NCBI GenBank assembly: GCA_001443495.1
Contig: LDXR01000026.1
Coordinates: 1 to 27,892, forward strand
Direction of reading: 5' to 3'
Length of the DNA: 27,892 nt
Source: a candidate division NC10 bacterium CSP1-5
GTDB taxonomy: Bacteria; Methylomirabilota; Methylomirabilia; Methylomirabilales; CSP1-5
In this document: positions 1,994 to 7,365 of the stretch, piece by piece
How positions within the stretch are numbered: the stretch's first letter is position 1
Layout: each line of letters starts with the position of its first letter
Made by a program: the position numbers and the translations under genes
Notes under the pieces: generated by a model
The model's input: the letters and a program-made list of their open reading frames with translations, nothing else
What the model was told of the DNA's origin: nothing
Database searches by the model: none

Positions 1994-2042
1994 AAAGCGA
2001 AAGTCCCAAAACCCATACCGCGCTGCCAATGGCCTACCCTAG
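1974..2042 (+). CDS. Possible 22-residue leader peptide overlapping the polymerase start
   Basis: A short frame from ATG 1974 to TAG 2040-2042 encodes a basic peptide (MTTWANKKRKSQN at its start). It overlaps the membrane protein's last codons and runs 14 bases past the polymerase ATG at 2029. The polymerase has no visible Shine-Dalgarno site, so termination of this frame just after 2029 could support reinitiation. A weak TAGGG precedes ATG 1974. It could be chance. Confidence 0.28.
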   Translation: MTTWANKKRKSQNPYRAANGLP

Positions 2043-4878
2043 GCGCCACGGCCCCCCAACTCCGAGATTTCCAACGGGCCCGCGCTGTGGGGCCTATACG
2101 GACGAGATAAGTGGCGTAGTGCACCCAGAGTGTCCCTATCGCGCCACTTCTTTCGGCTACGCGCCATATAGCGGGAATTGCGACACATCCACATTCCTGT
2201 TTTTGCTAGAGGCTCTAGGCGCGGATGAAGTAGAGGCCGGGGCACCTGCTGTGGGCCCTACGGGGGGAATATTTAACAAGCTCCTACACGAGAATACGCC
2301 TATTCTGCGTTCCGAGCAGGTGGTCGCGAACGTGGTGTGCTGTCGCCCCGTAGAATGGGAAAGCGATGACAAAGGGGGCCAGCGTACTGTGAGGCAAGAG
2401 TGGAGCGGGGACATGGTTAATGCCAAGCCTTCCGCTGGGCAGATTAGGGAGTGTTGGACCCGTTACGGGAAGCCCCTCCTAGAAGCCTTTCAGGGCAAGT
2501 ACATTATTGGTCTTGGTAAGACGCCCATACACGCTATGACTGGGCATCCCTACTCTATATCCAAACTGAGGGGAACCATCTTCGAGCCTGGGGAGCTAGT
2601 TCCCTGTGTAACATGTAATGGCTCGGGTAAGGTCTCGGGTCGGACCGTAAAGTGTAAAGAGTGCAAGGGTCACGGGACGCTCAAGTGTCCGACCTGCGCC
2701 AAGTGGACGAAGCACGGAAAGAAATGCGGAGCTAGTAATTTTACTCAGTGTCTTGAGTGCAAAGGTACTGCCTCCGTCCCCGGCAAGACTAAAAACTGCC
2801 TCGAATGTGACGGCGCTGGGCGTACATCAAAGGACCCCGATAATGTCTACGTCTGTGAACAGCTCAAGCCTGGTCAACTCTTATTCCCCACCTACCACCC
2901 CGCCATGCTTATGCGAGAGCCGACTATGTGGCCTGTCGTGGCCCGCGATTTCTCTCGCATGGCAACTCTTGAGAATGAGCTTCACATCTCAAACGCAACC
3001 ACTATCCATGAGTTTCCCCCCGCCGGGGCCACACTTGAGATGCTTCAGGCTCGTAGCTTCAGTGTTGATATTGAAACTTCTGGGGGTCTGGACCCATCCG
3101 AAGGCGATATTGTCTGTGTCGGAGCTACTGACCGTATCGGTACAGGCTATGTATTCGATCCTGACGATGAGCGAGTCGCAAGAGTGCTTAGTGGCGACGA
3201 AATTGTTGGGCAGAACTTCGTTCTTTATGATCAGTGGTGGCTGTACAACAAGGGCCACCATATCCCTGAGACGACCAAGATATGGGATACTCGGTACGCT
3301 GGGAAGCTTTGCAACCCAGACACCCCTAATGACCTCGTATACCTTACCGGAGAGTTCGCCAACCCTCCGATTAGAGGTTATTGGAAGACCACGCAAAATT
3401 ACCGTCACCACAAACCGCGCGTCGCTTGCATTGACGTTGACGCTACACTGAGGGTCGCGCAGGGGCAGCGGGATTATTTGAAATGGACTGGTCAGCTCTC
3501 GCTTATGGAAAACTACATCATCCCGCTTTCCCGCGTGACGTTTGAGATGCGTGCGGCGGGCATGAAGATAGACAAGTCGCGGATGAAAGACGCCTCGGCG
3601 GCGATTGAGAAGACACTAGTTGAGGAGCGGGCTTTCCTGCCAGATTGGGGGGGCACTAGAACCGAGAACCAACACGCGCGGGTTCAGGAGTGTCTGTACG
3701 AGACGCTCAAGCTACCGACCCAAAAGAAACGCGGTACGGGAAGGCCGACCGCCAACGCCGAGGCTTTAGAGGAACTCCGATCTCGCTTACAGACCGGGCA
3801 TAAGTCGGTTAAACACGTCAATGAGGAGGATACAGATGACGGAATCTCATTCATCAACAGAATCCTGGAACTGCGAGATATGTCGAAGTTACAGACTTCT
3901 TTTCTCCGCTACAGGCTATCTGGAAGTTTCGTTCACCCTGCTCTCAGTCTTGGAGGATCTGCGAAAGGTAAACATGAAAGCGGTAGGGGGACCGCCTCTT
4001 TTAGATTCTCATGCACAGACCCTAATGCACAGCAGATCCCTGATTGCCGATGTTCAAAAAAGTGTTACGGAACTAACTTGGACTGCAGAGGCGCTAGATA
4101 CATATTTATCCCAGACCAGCCCGACTGGGAAGTGATGTCGGTTGACCTGGCGCAGGCGGAGATTGTGGGCTTTCTCTACCTCGCGGAGGAGTGGGGGATT
4201 CTGAAAAAGGTACTTCACGAGGGTCTTGACGCGCATCAAGCCGTGGCGAATCAGATATTAGGGAGGGACGCGAGCAAGCCTGAGCGGGACGACTTCAAGA
4301 CTACTACCTTTGCTATCCTGTTTGGCGAACAAGAGCGTACTACCGCCGCCCGCCTGCACCGCTCACTTGACGAAATCCACGCCGCCCGTGACGCCTACTT
4401 CAAGATGCTCCCCGGTGTTGACGACTACCGGACATCCGTGATAGAATCCTGTAAAAGACGTGGCTATGTCGAATCCCCGTTTGGCTTCAGGCGATACATT
4501 CGGCTCGACCGGAGTACCGGGCGCGCGGCTAACCAAGCCTGCAACGCCCCCATCCAGAACATCCCACCAACTGTCATCGGCAAGGCCATGCTCCGAATGT
4601 ATCGCCAGCTCCCCAAGCCCGCGCGCCTGTGGATGCAGGTTCACGATGAGGTGCTCATAGTGTATCCTAAGAACCTGCGCGAGGCCGTGCGAGACTGCGC
4701 CTTGTCCAACCTCCGCGCCGAGGTGCCCGAGATGCCCGCGCCTGTGCTGGGCATGGCCGGGGGGCTCAAGTTCAATGTAGACTGTGAGATAGGGCCGAAC
4801 TGGGGCGCCTTGCGTAAATATAGCGAGGTGGTGGGGATGGAAAGGGAGGGCAAGAATCCGTGGATACCGACAAGCTAG
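2029..4878 (+). CDS. Composite DNA polymerase: UDG-like + DnaJ-type zinc module + 3'-5' exonuclease + family A polymerase
   Basis: 949 residues. About 20-310 is a family IV-like uracil-DNA glycosylase fold: EALGADEVEAGAPAVGPTGG (61-80), NVVCCRP (101-107) and TYHPAML (288-294), with C20, C35, C104/C105 and C142 as possible Fe-S ligands. Inserted at 193-263 is a DnaJ-like cysteine module: CVTCNGSG, CKECKGHG, CPTC, CLECKGTA, CLECDGAG. About 343-480 is a DEDD exonuclease (SVDIET 345-350; D471 in DVDAT). The family A core follows: RFSCTDPNAQQIP (659-671), motif A D706-LAQAE, motif B R753-x3-K757-x3-F761-x3-F765-G, NAPIQN (839-844), motif C QVHDE (870-874). A second Cys cluster (C673, C675, C679, C686) follows the PNAQQIP motif. 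It is very probably the replicative polymerase. ATG 2029 is the first possible start and lacks a ribosome site. SPO1-type phages also carry UDG-like domains on PolA; whether this one excises uracil is unknown. Confidence 0.95.
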   Translation: MAYPRRHGPPTPRFPTGPRCGAYTDEISGVVHPECPYRATSFGYAPYSGNCDTSTFLFLLEALGADEVEAGAPAVGPTGGIFNKLLHENTPILRSEQVVANVVCCRPVEWESDDKGGQRTVRQEWSGDMVNAKPSAGQIRECWTRYGKPLLEAFQGKYIIGLGKTPIHAMTGHPYSISKLRGTIFEPGELVPCVTCNGSGKVSGRTVKCKECKGHGTLKCPTCAKWTKHGKKCGASNFTQCLECKGTASVPGKTKNCLECDGAGRTSKDPDNVYVCEQLKPGQLLFPTYHPAMLMREPTMWPVVARDFSRMATLENELHISNATTIHEFPPAGATLEMLQARSFSVDIETSGGLDPSEGDIVCVGATDRIGTGYVFDPDDERVARVLSGDEIVGQNFVLYDQWWLYNKGHHIPETTKIWDTRYAGKLCNPDTPNDLVYLTGEFANPPIRGYWKTTQNYRHHKPRVACIDVDATLRVAQGQRDYLKWTGQLSLMENYIIPLSRVTFEMRAAGMKIDKSRMKDASAAIEKTLVEERAFLPDWGGTRTENQHARVQECLYETLKLPTQKKRGTGRPTANAEALEELRSRLQTGHKSVKHVNEEDTDDGISFINRILELRDMSKLQTSFLRYRLSGSFVHPALSLGGSAKGKHESGRGTASFRFSCTDPNAQQIPDCRCSKKCYGTNLDCRGARYIFIPDQPDWEVMSVDLAQAEIVGFLYLAEEWGILKKVLHEGLDAHQAVANQILGRDASKPERDDFKTTTFAILFGEQERTTAARLHRSLDEIHAARDAYFKMLPGVDDYRTSVIESCKRRGYVESPFGFRRYIRLDRSTGRAANQACNAPIQNIPPTVIGKAMLRMYRQLPKPARLWMQVHDEVLIVYPKNLREAVRDCALSNLRAEVPEMPAPVLGMAGGLKFNVDCEIGPNWGALRKYSEVVGMEREGKNPWIPTS

Positions 4879-5282
4879 AAACGCCAGATTGGCTGTTCAA
4901 ACAGTTGAAGTCAGTATTTAACTTCTCGTTTGATGCGGCGGCCAGCGCGGGTAATAATAAGTGTACGCTATGGTCTGACTCTCTAGACACGGACTGGAAG
5001 GAAGTCGCGAGGGGAGGGGTGGTATGGTTGAATCCCCCATACTCGAATCCTGGGCCCTTTCTCGCTAAAGCTGCGGACGAGGCGGTAAGGGGCGTAACAA
5101 CAGTAGCTTTGATCAAGGGTGATCCCTCGACCCGTTGGTGGCAGGTCTTTGTGGAAGGTGTGGCTACTCTAGTGTGGATCCCCAATAGAATCCGATTTAA
5201 TTTGAACAGAAAACCCACAAAATACCCTGCGTCCTTCCCCTCCGTTCTTGCTGTCTATTGGGGAGTAAAATGGAAGCCGTAA
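4860..5282 (+). CDS. dam: Phage-type DNA N6-adenine methyltransferase (Dam family)
   Basis: 140 residues from GTG 4860, with GGGAGGG eight bases upstream inside the end of the polymerase gene (19-base overlap). It matches the short phage Dam family: TPDWLF (8-13), FDAAAS (24-29) for AdoMet binding, catalytic NPPY at 58-61 within WLNPPYSNPGPF, then ALIKGDPSTRWW (83-94) and RIRF (110-113). Such enzymes transfer a methyl group from S-adenosylmethionine to adenine N6, usually in GATC. Likely roles are protection from host restriction or marking of replicated DNA. Target specificity cannot be read from the sequence. Length is normal for the compact phage form. Confidence 0.92.
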   Translation: MDTDKLETPDWLFKQLKSVFNFSFDAAASAGNNKCTLWSDSLDTDWKEVARGGVVWLNPPYSNPGPFLAKAADEAVRGVTTVALIKGDPSTRWWQVFVEGVATLVWIPNRIRFNLNRKPTKYPASFPSVLAVYWGVKWKP

Positions 5283-5934: not shown

Positions 5935-7365
5935 TTGAGCAACTCCGAACTCCTCAAACTCATCACCTCCCTCGAATCCGGCTCGCGCCCGGACTTGCGT
6001 GACCTAAGCGCCTGGTTAGCCTCTCGTAACGACATTAGCGAGGACGACTGGGAAAAGGTCCAGGCGGCTCTTATAAAGGCATACAAATTCTCTGGCCCCG
6101 AGCAGCTTAGCCAGGAACTAAAGCGTCCCTCGTTCACGCGCGTTACGAACTACAAGGACGACTTTAGTCCCCTTCTTGACGAAGTGAACATGGGAGGCTG
6201 GCTCCGGCGATTCGTCGAGCACACGCGCAATATGGAGGCCCCCACCGCATTTCACTTCGCCTCGGCTCTTACCGTGCTCGGGGCGAGCCTCCGTCGTAGA
6301 GTATTCGTGGATCAGGGCTATTATAAAATATACCCAGCCATGCGTACAATGTTGGTGGGGCCCTCGGGCACCGTAAAGAAGTCTACAGCATCAGGCTACG
6401 CCGTTAAAGTGGGCCGTGCGGCGGGTTGCTACAATAACCTGATGAACACGGGCTCGGGCGAGGCCCTTCTATCTCAGCTCGCCAAGCTGTGCAAAATGCA
6501 AGGCGAATCTACGGGCCTCGTGTACGTCTCCGAGATGTCCACGCTTATCAACAAGTCCGACTACAACATCAGCCTCGTGCAGCTCCTTACCGACCTCTTC
6601 GACGATGCGGATCGAAAAGAGAAACAGACCAAGTCAAGCGGCAAGGAGATTCTCGATAACATAGCCGTCTCGTGCTTACTCGGCACGAACGAGGAGTTTC
6701 TAGTTGAGTCCGTTCCCCCCTCCGCGCTGGCCGGGGGCATGATGTCTCGATTCTTAACCTGGTATCAGGAGGATACGGATAGGGAGTTCCCCCGACCTAT
6801 CCTTGCGGACCCCAAGGAATATGAGAGTCTGGTGGGGGATCTCACACGAGTGGGGTTTGTAAAAGGTCCAGCACACACAGACGCGGAGGCCGACAAGTGG
6901 TATGAGGCGTGGTATCGGGGGCGCAAGGACCGACGCCCAGTGAATGAGCGTTTGGCCGCGTTTTGGCAGCGGATACCGGACCACCTACTGCGCCTGGGAA
7001 TGTTGTTCTCCGTATCCGACAACCCAGATCAACGCGAGAGCGTAGAGATAACGGAAACTCACCTAATTCAGGCCGAGGCGGTGCTCGCCTGGGTTCTCAA
7101 ATATCTCCCTCGTGTCTACGCCTACGTGGACGTGACTGGGTATGGCAGAGAGACCCAGCGGATAATCACATTTATCCGTAACCGAGGCGGCTACGTGGGA
7201 GGGAGCGAACTCGGGCGCAAGATGAGCGGGAGGATGTCGGCCCGGCTGCTAGATGAGCACTTGACTACCCTGACCCGCCATAATATAATAGAACGTATCA
7301 AGGCCACACCGTGGGAGAGCAGCGAGTACGGCTATAGGCTGGTGAGGAAGGAGGAGGAGCTGTGA
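5935..7365 (+). CDS. DUF3987-like P-loop ATPase (helicase/primase-associated)
   Basis: 476 residues from TTG 5935, preceded by GGGAGGAGG. The order fits DUF3987-type proteins of phages and plasmids: an N-terminal helical region, then APTAFHFASALTVLGASL (102-119), the P-loop MLVGPSGTVKKSTA (139-152), a Walker B-like strand GLVYVSEMSTLI (194-205), and a sensor-type segment VSCLLGTNEEF (245-255) with SRFL (271-274). The C-terminal 100 residues (from about 405) look like a winged helix (GGYVGGSELGRKMSGRM). It is likely the replicative helicase or helicase-primase ATPase working with the polymerase; no primase zinc finger or TOPRIM was seen. It couples to the next gene by a GTGA overlap. Confidence 0.82.
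   Translation: MSNSELLKLITSLESGSRPDLRDLSAWLASRNDISEDDWEKVQAALIKAYKFSGPEQLSQELKRPSFTRVTNYKDDFSPLLDEVNMGGWLRRFVEHTRNMEAPTAFHFASALTVLGASLRRRVFVDQGYYKIYPAMRTMLVGPSGTVKKSTASGYAVKVGRAAGCYNNLMNTGSGEALLSQLAKLCKMQGESTGLVYVSEMSTLINKSDYNISLVQLLTDLFDDADRKEKQTKSSGKEILDNIAVSCLLGTNEEFLVESVPPSALAGGMMSRFLTWYQEDTDREFPRPILADPKEYESLVGDLTRVGFVKGPAHTDAEADKWYEAWYRGRKDRRPVNERLAAFWQRIPDHLLRLGMLFSVSDNPDQRESVEITETHLIQAEAVLAWVLKYLPRVYAYVDVTGYGRETQRIITFIRNRGGYVGGSELGRKMSGRMSARLLDEHLTTLTRHNIIERIKATPWESSEYGYRLVRKEEEL

Follow-up and report, generated by a model that had tools for sequence, protein, structure and literature searches.

The gene at positions 2029-4878 (+) of a phage contig encodes a 949-residue protein, P0001, in which a UDG domain is fused to a 3'-5' exonuclease and a family A DNA polymerase, and in which a cysteine-rich insert takes the place of one hairpin turn in the UDG fold. 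We propose that P0001 would be the replicative polymerase of the phage, with an N-terminal Fe-S UDG of family-4 type excising uracil at the replication fork. The insert of 98 residues, standing in for the beta-hairpin turn just before the HPA loop, would fold into two or three small zinc knuckles in a row, like those of DnaJ and Anti-TRAP. The resulting arm would point away from the uracil pocket and offer an additional surface on which a replisome partner or flanking DNA could dock. Taken as a whole, a probably active UDG-polymerase with a zinc-knuckle arm that points away and docks a partner or flanking DNA, we give this proposal an even chance of being correct.

Genomic context

The window analysed is an entire contig (C26, 27,892 bases) of a bacterial assembly of 40 contigs that is 99.7% complete. 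The contig is that of a phage, with replication genes on one strand and, on the opposite one, genes for a holin, an internal virion protein, a tail fibre and head proteins. It may be partial, because neither a terminase nor a portal could be recognised in the genes scanned, and no exact repeat common to both ends was found in the 15-199 base range tested. The reading frame of P0001 is complete from ATG to stop. Its neighbours are genes for a Dam-type DNA N6-adenine methyltransferase (4860-5282, +; Pfam Dam, 1.5e-24) and a DUF3987 primase/helicase-type replication protein (5935-7365, +; Pfam DUF3987, 2e-10; phrog_14296, 1.2e-25). A DUF3987 primase/helicase gene also adjoins the fusion in vir526 and Mel-JY34, and by reading of the locus one lies downstream of it in L134. 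In several unrelated phages (the window, L034, L035 and L134) a UDG-PolA gene and a DUF3987 gene are adjacent or nearly so.

The UDG, exonuclease and polymerase domains

Pfam UDG (PF03167) matches the N-terminal 330 residues at 5.7e-8, over the gathering score and in an alignment that crosses the insert, and Pfam DNA_pol_A matches the polymerase region at 9e-43, which bears out the preliminary description of this gene as a UDG-like domain fused to PolA. The main UDG motifs, described there as kept, were located at residues 61-76, 101-107 and 287-292. The insert divides the domain into two parts. The first (aa 20-185; 2086-2583, +), supported by Pfam, by the conserved columns and by a comparison of the predicted model with Thermus UDG 1ui1, carries the putative Fe-S ligands C20, C35, C105 and C142 together with E61 and N101, and the second (aa 284-315; 2878-2973, +) comprises a strand, the H290-P291-A292 catalytic loop and the last helix. 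The catalytic motifs are retained as E61 (the GEAPG motif reads LEALG here), N101 (of TNVVKCRP) and H290-P291-A292 (HP[AS]). C20, C35, C105, C142, E61, N101 and H290 are near-invariant in 60 aligned IMG/VR UDG-PolA fusions, and P0001 has all of them; the columns of the four cysteines hold Cys in 55-58 of the 60 relatives. The first Fe-S cysteine pair of P0001 is spaced 15 residues apart, compared to 3 normally.

In the AlphaFold model of residues 1-335 the pLDDT of the UDG core is mostly >85. The model has the UDG alpha/beta fold and superposes on 1ui1 with a Z score of 24.4 and an rmsd of 1.7 A over 181 residues spanning 22-319. Family 4 UDGs were its best Foldseek matches, and a profile built on 74 UDG rows, which comprise the query, fusions and free-standing phage UDGs, hits Thermus UDG 1ui0 at 4e-64. 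The score against the curated family-4 model falls below the cut-off (TIGR00758 UDG_fam4, 51.2 bits vs 125.3). Since the superfamily threshold of PF03167 is passed but that of TIGR00758 is missed, we assign the domain to the UDG superfamily as a family-4-like member. Judged from its sequence, it is an intact family-4-like UDG in which Fe-S and active-site residues are kept, and at the replication fork it is probably still able to bind uracil in DNA and cut it out.

The 3'-5' exonuclease domain (aa 340-480; 3046-3468, +) gives a weak Pfam match and retains D347, E349, D401 and D469. The tyrosine of exonuclease motif III, present in 57 of 60 relatives, is replaced by V465 (window 3421-3423), a change that may weaken proofreading. 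The polymerase domain (aa 481-930; 3469-4818, +) belongs to family A by its Pfam match and by the motif A, B and C residues D706, K757 and H872-D873; E711 and F761 are also kept, and Foldseek aligns the polymerase with Bst Pol I at E 1e-32. The Foldseek matches of the full-length model point to nothing beyond polymerase and UDG. Within the polymerase domain, flanked by QQIP and RYIF, is a second small cysteine cluster, CRCSKKCYGTNLDC (aa 673-686; 4045-4086, +), whose C679 and C686 fall in columns that are empty in 58-59 of 60 relatives.

The cysteine-rich insert

In the alignments the insert (aa 186-283; 2584-2877, +), ~98 residues long, fills precisely the interval from the RG segment to the strand that runs into the catalytic HPA loop. 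For most of the other fusions and free UDGs in the survey, 19-36 residues separate RG from HPA. A DnaJ-type insert within the UDG domain had been claimed before; the placement holds, but the extent of 193-263 given then was too short (now ~186-283) and missed C233 and C276. Twelve of the 31 cysteines of P0001 (193, 196, 209, 212, 220, 223, 233, 241, 244, 257, 260 and 276) fall within residues 193-276 (hypergeometric p 4e-6), and H229 lies among them. The three perfect CxxCxGxG motifs at 193, 209 and 257, the degenerate copy at 241 (CLECKGTAS) and the CPTC at 220 were all found as originally described. At the DNA level the CxxCxGxG pattern occurs 3 times in the window vs 0.28 expected, a number reached in 0 of 100 shuffles. 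Composition shuffles of the protein gave a mean of 0.007 CxxCxGxG and a maximum of 1 in 20,000. A recent foreign origin of the insert was considered and rejected, as its GC and GC3 are not clearly different from those of the rest of the gene.

Unit 1 (aa 193-217; 2605-2679, +; CVTCNGSGKVSGRTVKCKECKGHGT) and unit 3 (aa 241-265; 2749-2823, +; CLECKGTASVPGKTKNCLECDGAGR) are DnaJ half-modules with 42% identity to each other (11 of 26 aligned residues). Between them lies putative unit 2 (aa 220-233; 2686-2727, +), CPTC-x5-H-x3-C, which on its predicted ligands could form a third zinc site. When an HMM made from 30 cysteine-rich domains of DnaJ proteins in related genomes is used, residues 190-219 and residues 238-266 both align to one and the same DnaJ half, motifs 1 and 2. 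Four motifs in the order and spacing of a DnaJ cysteine-rich domain are not present in the insert: three are exact and one is degenerate, and they are spaced 16/32/16 vs 17/22/14 in DnaJ. Of the two profiles suggested earlier, UDG gave a match over the gathering score, but the DnaJ profile (Pfam PF00684) on the excised insert stayed under it (21.8 bits vs 32.7, E 2e-4). What survives of the DnaJ-type zinc module is therefore two half-modules and not a whole DnaJ cysteine-rich domain. By its sequence pattern the insert is best described as two motif-1/2 half-modules flanking a CxxC/H/C unit, and it putatively binds zinc. In both AlphaFold2 models the pLDDT is <50 over most of the insert.

Likeness to the DnaJ CxxCxGxG motifs raises the question of a true DnaJ-like co-chaperone, in which the insert would recruit host DnaK or bind unfolded protein, and the authors of the HMO-2011 study cite the part of DnaJ in lambda replication (PMC9038755). 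No HPD motif of a J domain is present anywhere in P0001, which makes a chaperone role unlikely. Moreover, only the first half of DnaJ is matched, twice and with different spacing, so the DnaJ pairing of zinc sites is not expected to carry over. We regard a co-chaperone as highly improbable.

The closest working analogue of the insert is Anti-TRAP (RtpA), a protein with two CxxCxGxG motifs that depends on zinc both to oligomerise and to function, and that exerts its effect by binding to the TRAP protein (PMC2896485). CxxCxGxG pairs ~16-17 residues apart are common to Anti-TRAP, the DnaJ cysteine-rich domain and the insert. The insert differs from both in not being a full DnaJ module and in being embedded in another domain. 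A genome of the same order encodes a free-standing protein of 100 residues with three tandem CxxCxGxG half-modules (L343 1489-1788, G010:C251; Pfam Anti-TRAP 2e-10, DnaJ 8e-9). Over 83 columns it shares 40% identity with the insert, a likeness that in part reflects merely the common Cys/Gly pattern.

Proposed orientation of the arm

In the model, the active-site motifs follow or end strands: 56-62 (E61), 98-103 (N101) and 284-288 (before H290). The turn that carries the insert is at the start of strand 284-288 and H290 is at its other end, so the insert should be far from the pocket. From this topology we infer that the arm projects away from a flipped base, and we take the insert to be an optional docking arm built on zinc, not a uracil reader.

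The insert could instead read DNA or lesions, its knuckles gripping the template beside the UDG pocket and tuning the recognition of uracil or modified bases during synthesis. Zinc knuckles often bind nucleic acids, and the insert does precede the HPA loop in sequence. Several relatives (L032, L038, L339 and L340) have thymidylate synthase and/or dCMP deaminase genes close to the UDG-PolA gene, which hints at a link to uracil/thymine-base metabolism, and uracil or modified bases may therefore be of importance in those phages. Set against this are the position expected for the turn from the topology of the model, at the strand end opposite the active site, the finding that no base-modification genes were recognised beside the P0001 gene, and ~50 other fusions that do without any such element. 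A DNA-reading role seems unlikely to us, though it deserves serious weight. Base recognition by the insert, one of the two functions first suggested for it, is unsupported, and recruitment of a partner, the other, would be the better reading. As a guess, a candidate partner of this putative docking arm is the neighbouring DUF3987 protein.

Recurrence of loop inserts in relatives

Close relatives of the whole protein were found neither in IMG/VR or GTDB contigs with exact peptide patterns nor in genomes of the same class, and no relative covering 80% of it was found in GenBank phages or plasmids. The UDG query matches 135 phage records; those among the matches listed are mostly annotated as DNA polymerase, some of them as DnaE (Rhizobium phages). 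In Rhizobium phage RHph_X66 (L341) a UDG-like domain is located at the C-terminus of a DnaE-type polymerase, which belongs to another polymerase family.

IMG/VR was scanned for CxxCxGxG upstream of an HP motif; such pattern scans register CxxCxGxG only in exact form and at fixed distances, so that zinc motifs of other kinds escape them. Three loci from the scan (L073, L087 and L111) proved to be UDG-PolA fusions in which this UDG loop holds a Cys4 insert. Expansion of this family, whose members are 52-73% identical to L120, uncovered the loop insert in L120, L121, L122 and L127 and its absence from L123-L126 and L128-L131. Three members (L127, L128 and L130) carry a DnaJ half-module (CPACSGTG...CPACKG and variants) in the polymerase fingers, instead of or besides the UDG-loop insert, and two (L123 and L131) have longer UDG loops without cysteines. 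None of ~50 other fusions checked has Cys modules in the UDG loop, and no further fusion of the set of 60 carries a CxxC cluster there; of the 295 loci that one scan gave, the loop survey took in the best 80. Planctomycete UDG genes that emerged from a pattern scan of genome contigs were discarded: LRGRW in another frame mimics CxxCxGxG, and the translated examples lack a zinc insert.

A FastTree phylogeny of 61 fusions implies at least four changes of the UDG-loop Cys insert and one of the fingers insert, with mixed supports (0.07-1.0) inside the L120-L131 family. Within that family the sequences indicate that the loop inserts have been gained or lost repeatedly. No relative found has the exact insert of P0001. 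P0001 is a deep lone branch, ~21% identical to the L120-L131 family, and its insert was therefore most likely gained independently.

Such lability could also mean that the turn is a permissive surface site, gathering small self-folding modules that are neutral or nearly neutral and have no specific role. Presence and absence do vary among members of one family, and the extensions of L123 and L131 occupy the same turn. On the other hand, DnaJ-type half-modules and not arbitrary sequence recur in the UDG loop, in the fingers and in the HMO-2011 thumb, and the ligand cysteines of units 1 and 3 in P0001 are all intact. We consider a neutral insertion quite unlikely. A broader form of the docking reading is that family A replisomes of phages repeatedly make use of DnaJ/Anti-TRAP half-modules as plug-in docking devices. 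These half-modules would have been inserted independently into the UDG loop (P0001; L120-L131), the fingers (L127, L128 and L130) and the thumb (HMO-2011), and would tether the polymerase to a partner or DNA, comparable to the thioredoxin-binding insert of T7 polymerase. We offer this generalisation tentatively and hold it to be possible but somewhat doubtful.

UDG-polymerase fusions occur widely among phages, and the open-licence literature searched yielded no study of their function. Near relatives that differ in the zinc arm of one loop provide a natural, clean comparison of the role of that loop. Should the modules be docking arms, they would be leads to new replisome partners in uncultivated phages, and a polymerase with a putative Fe-S cluster and several putative zinc sites would be unusual.

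Comparison with known systems

Fusions of UDG and polymerase are common in phages and already known. DNA polymerase I of Pseudomonas phage PaBG is a published example (PMC7412058), and the polymerase of Thermus phage phiLo has been solved (PDB 9qhs). Like P0001, these and the SPO1-group polymerases combine an N-terminal UDG-superfamily domain with a 3'-5' exonuclease and a family A polymerase. In contrast to P0001, the UDG loop of phiLo and of the SPO1-group protein has no Cys insert. The earlier comparison with SPO1-type phages is apt as far as the fusion goes, but P0001 does not belong with the SPO1-group UDG-like domains. In Bacillus phage Goe2 (L340) of that group the region is degenerate, lacking any Fe-S cysteines and with motif 1 altered, whereas the family-4-like domain of P0001 is intact and keeps all four. 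The fold, the four Fe-S cysteines and the catalytic motifs are shared with family 4 UDGs (T. thermophilus 1ui0/1ui1 and S. tokodaii 4zbx) and UdgX, which unlike P0001 are free-standing and have no insert.

A zinc module in the UDG loop was not described in the open-licence literature searched, and modules at this position appear to be undescribed. The preliminary view of the arrangement as uncommon thus stands for the position but not more widely, given the same-loop Cys4 inserts of the L120-L131 family and the DnaJ-type module already published for PolA of HMO-2011-type phages (PMC9038755, PMC6918029). The polymerase of Puniceispirillum phage HMO-2011 is, like P0001, a family A enzyme with a DnaJ CxxCxGxG half-module. 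P0001 is not of the HMO-2011 type: there, a single half-module is located between the exonuclease and polymerase domains (aa ~293-330, thumb) and no UDG is among the Pfam matches, whereas the half-modules of P0001 are in the UDG domain. The L120-L131 fusions (~890-1000 aa) are similar to P0001 in that the same UDG loop of four members accommodates a CxxCxGxG-containing Cys4 insert; these fusions differ in that the insert is a single four-Cys unit and that three members carry the separate half-module in the fingers.
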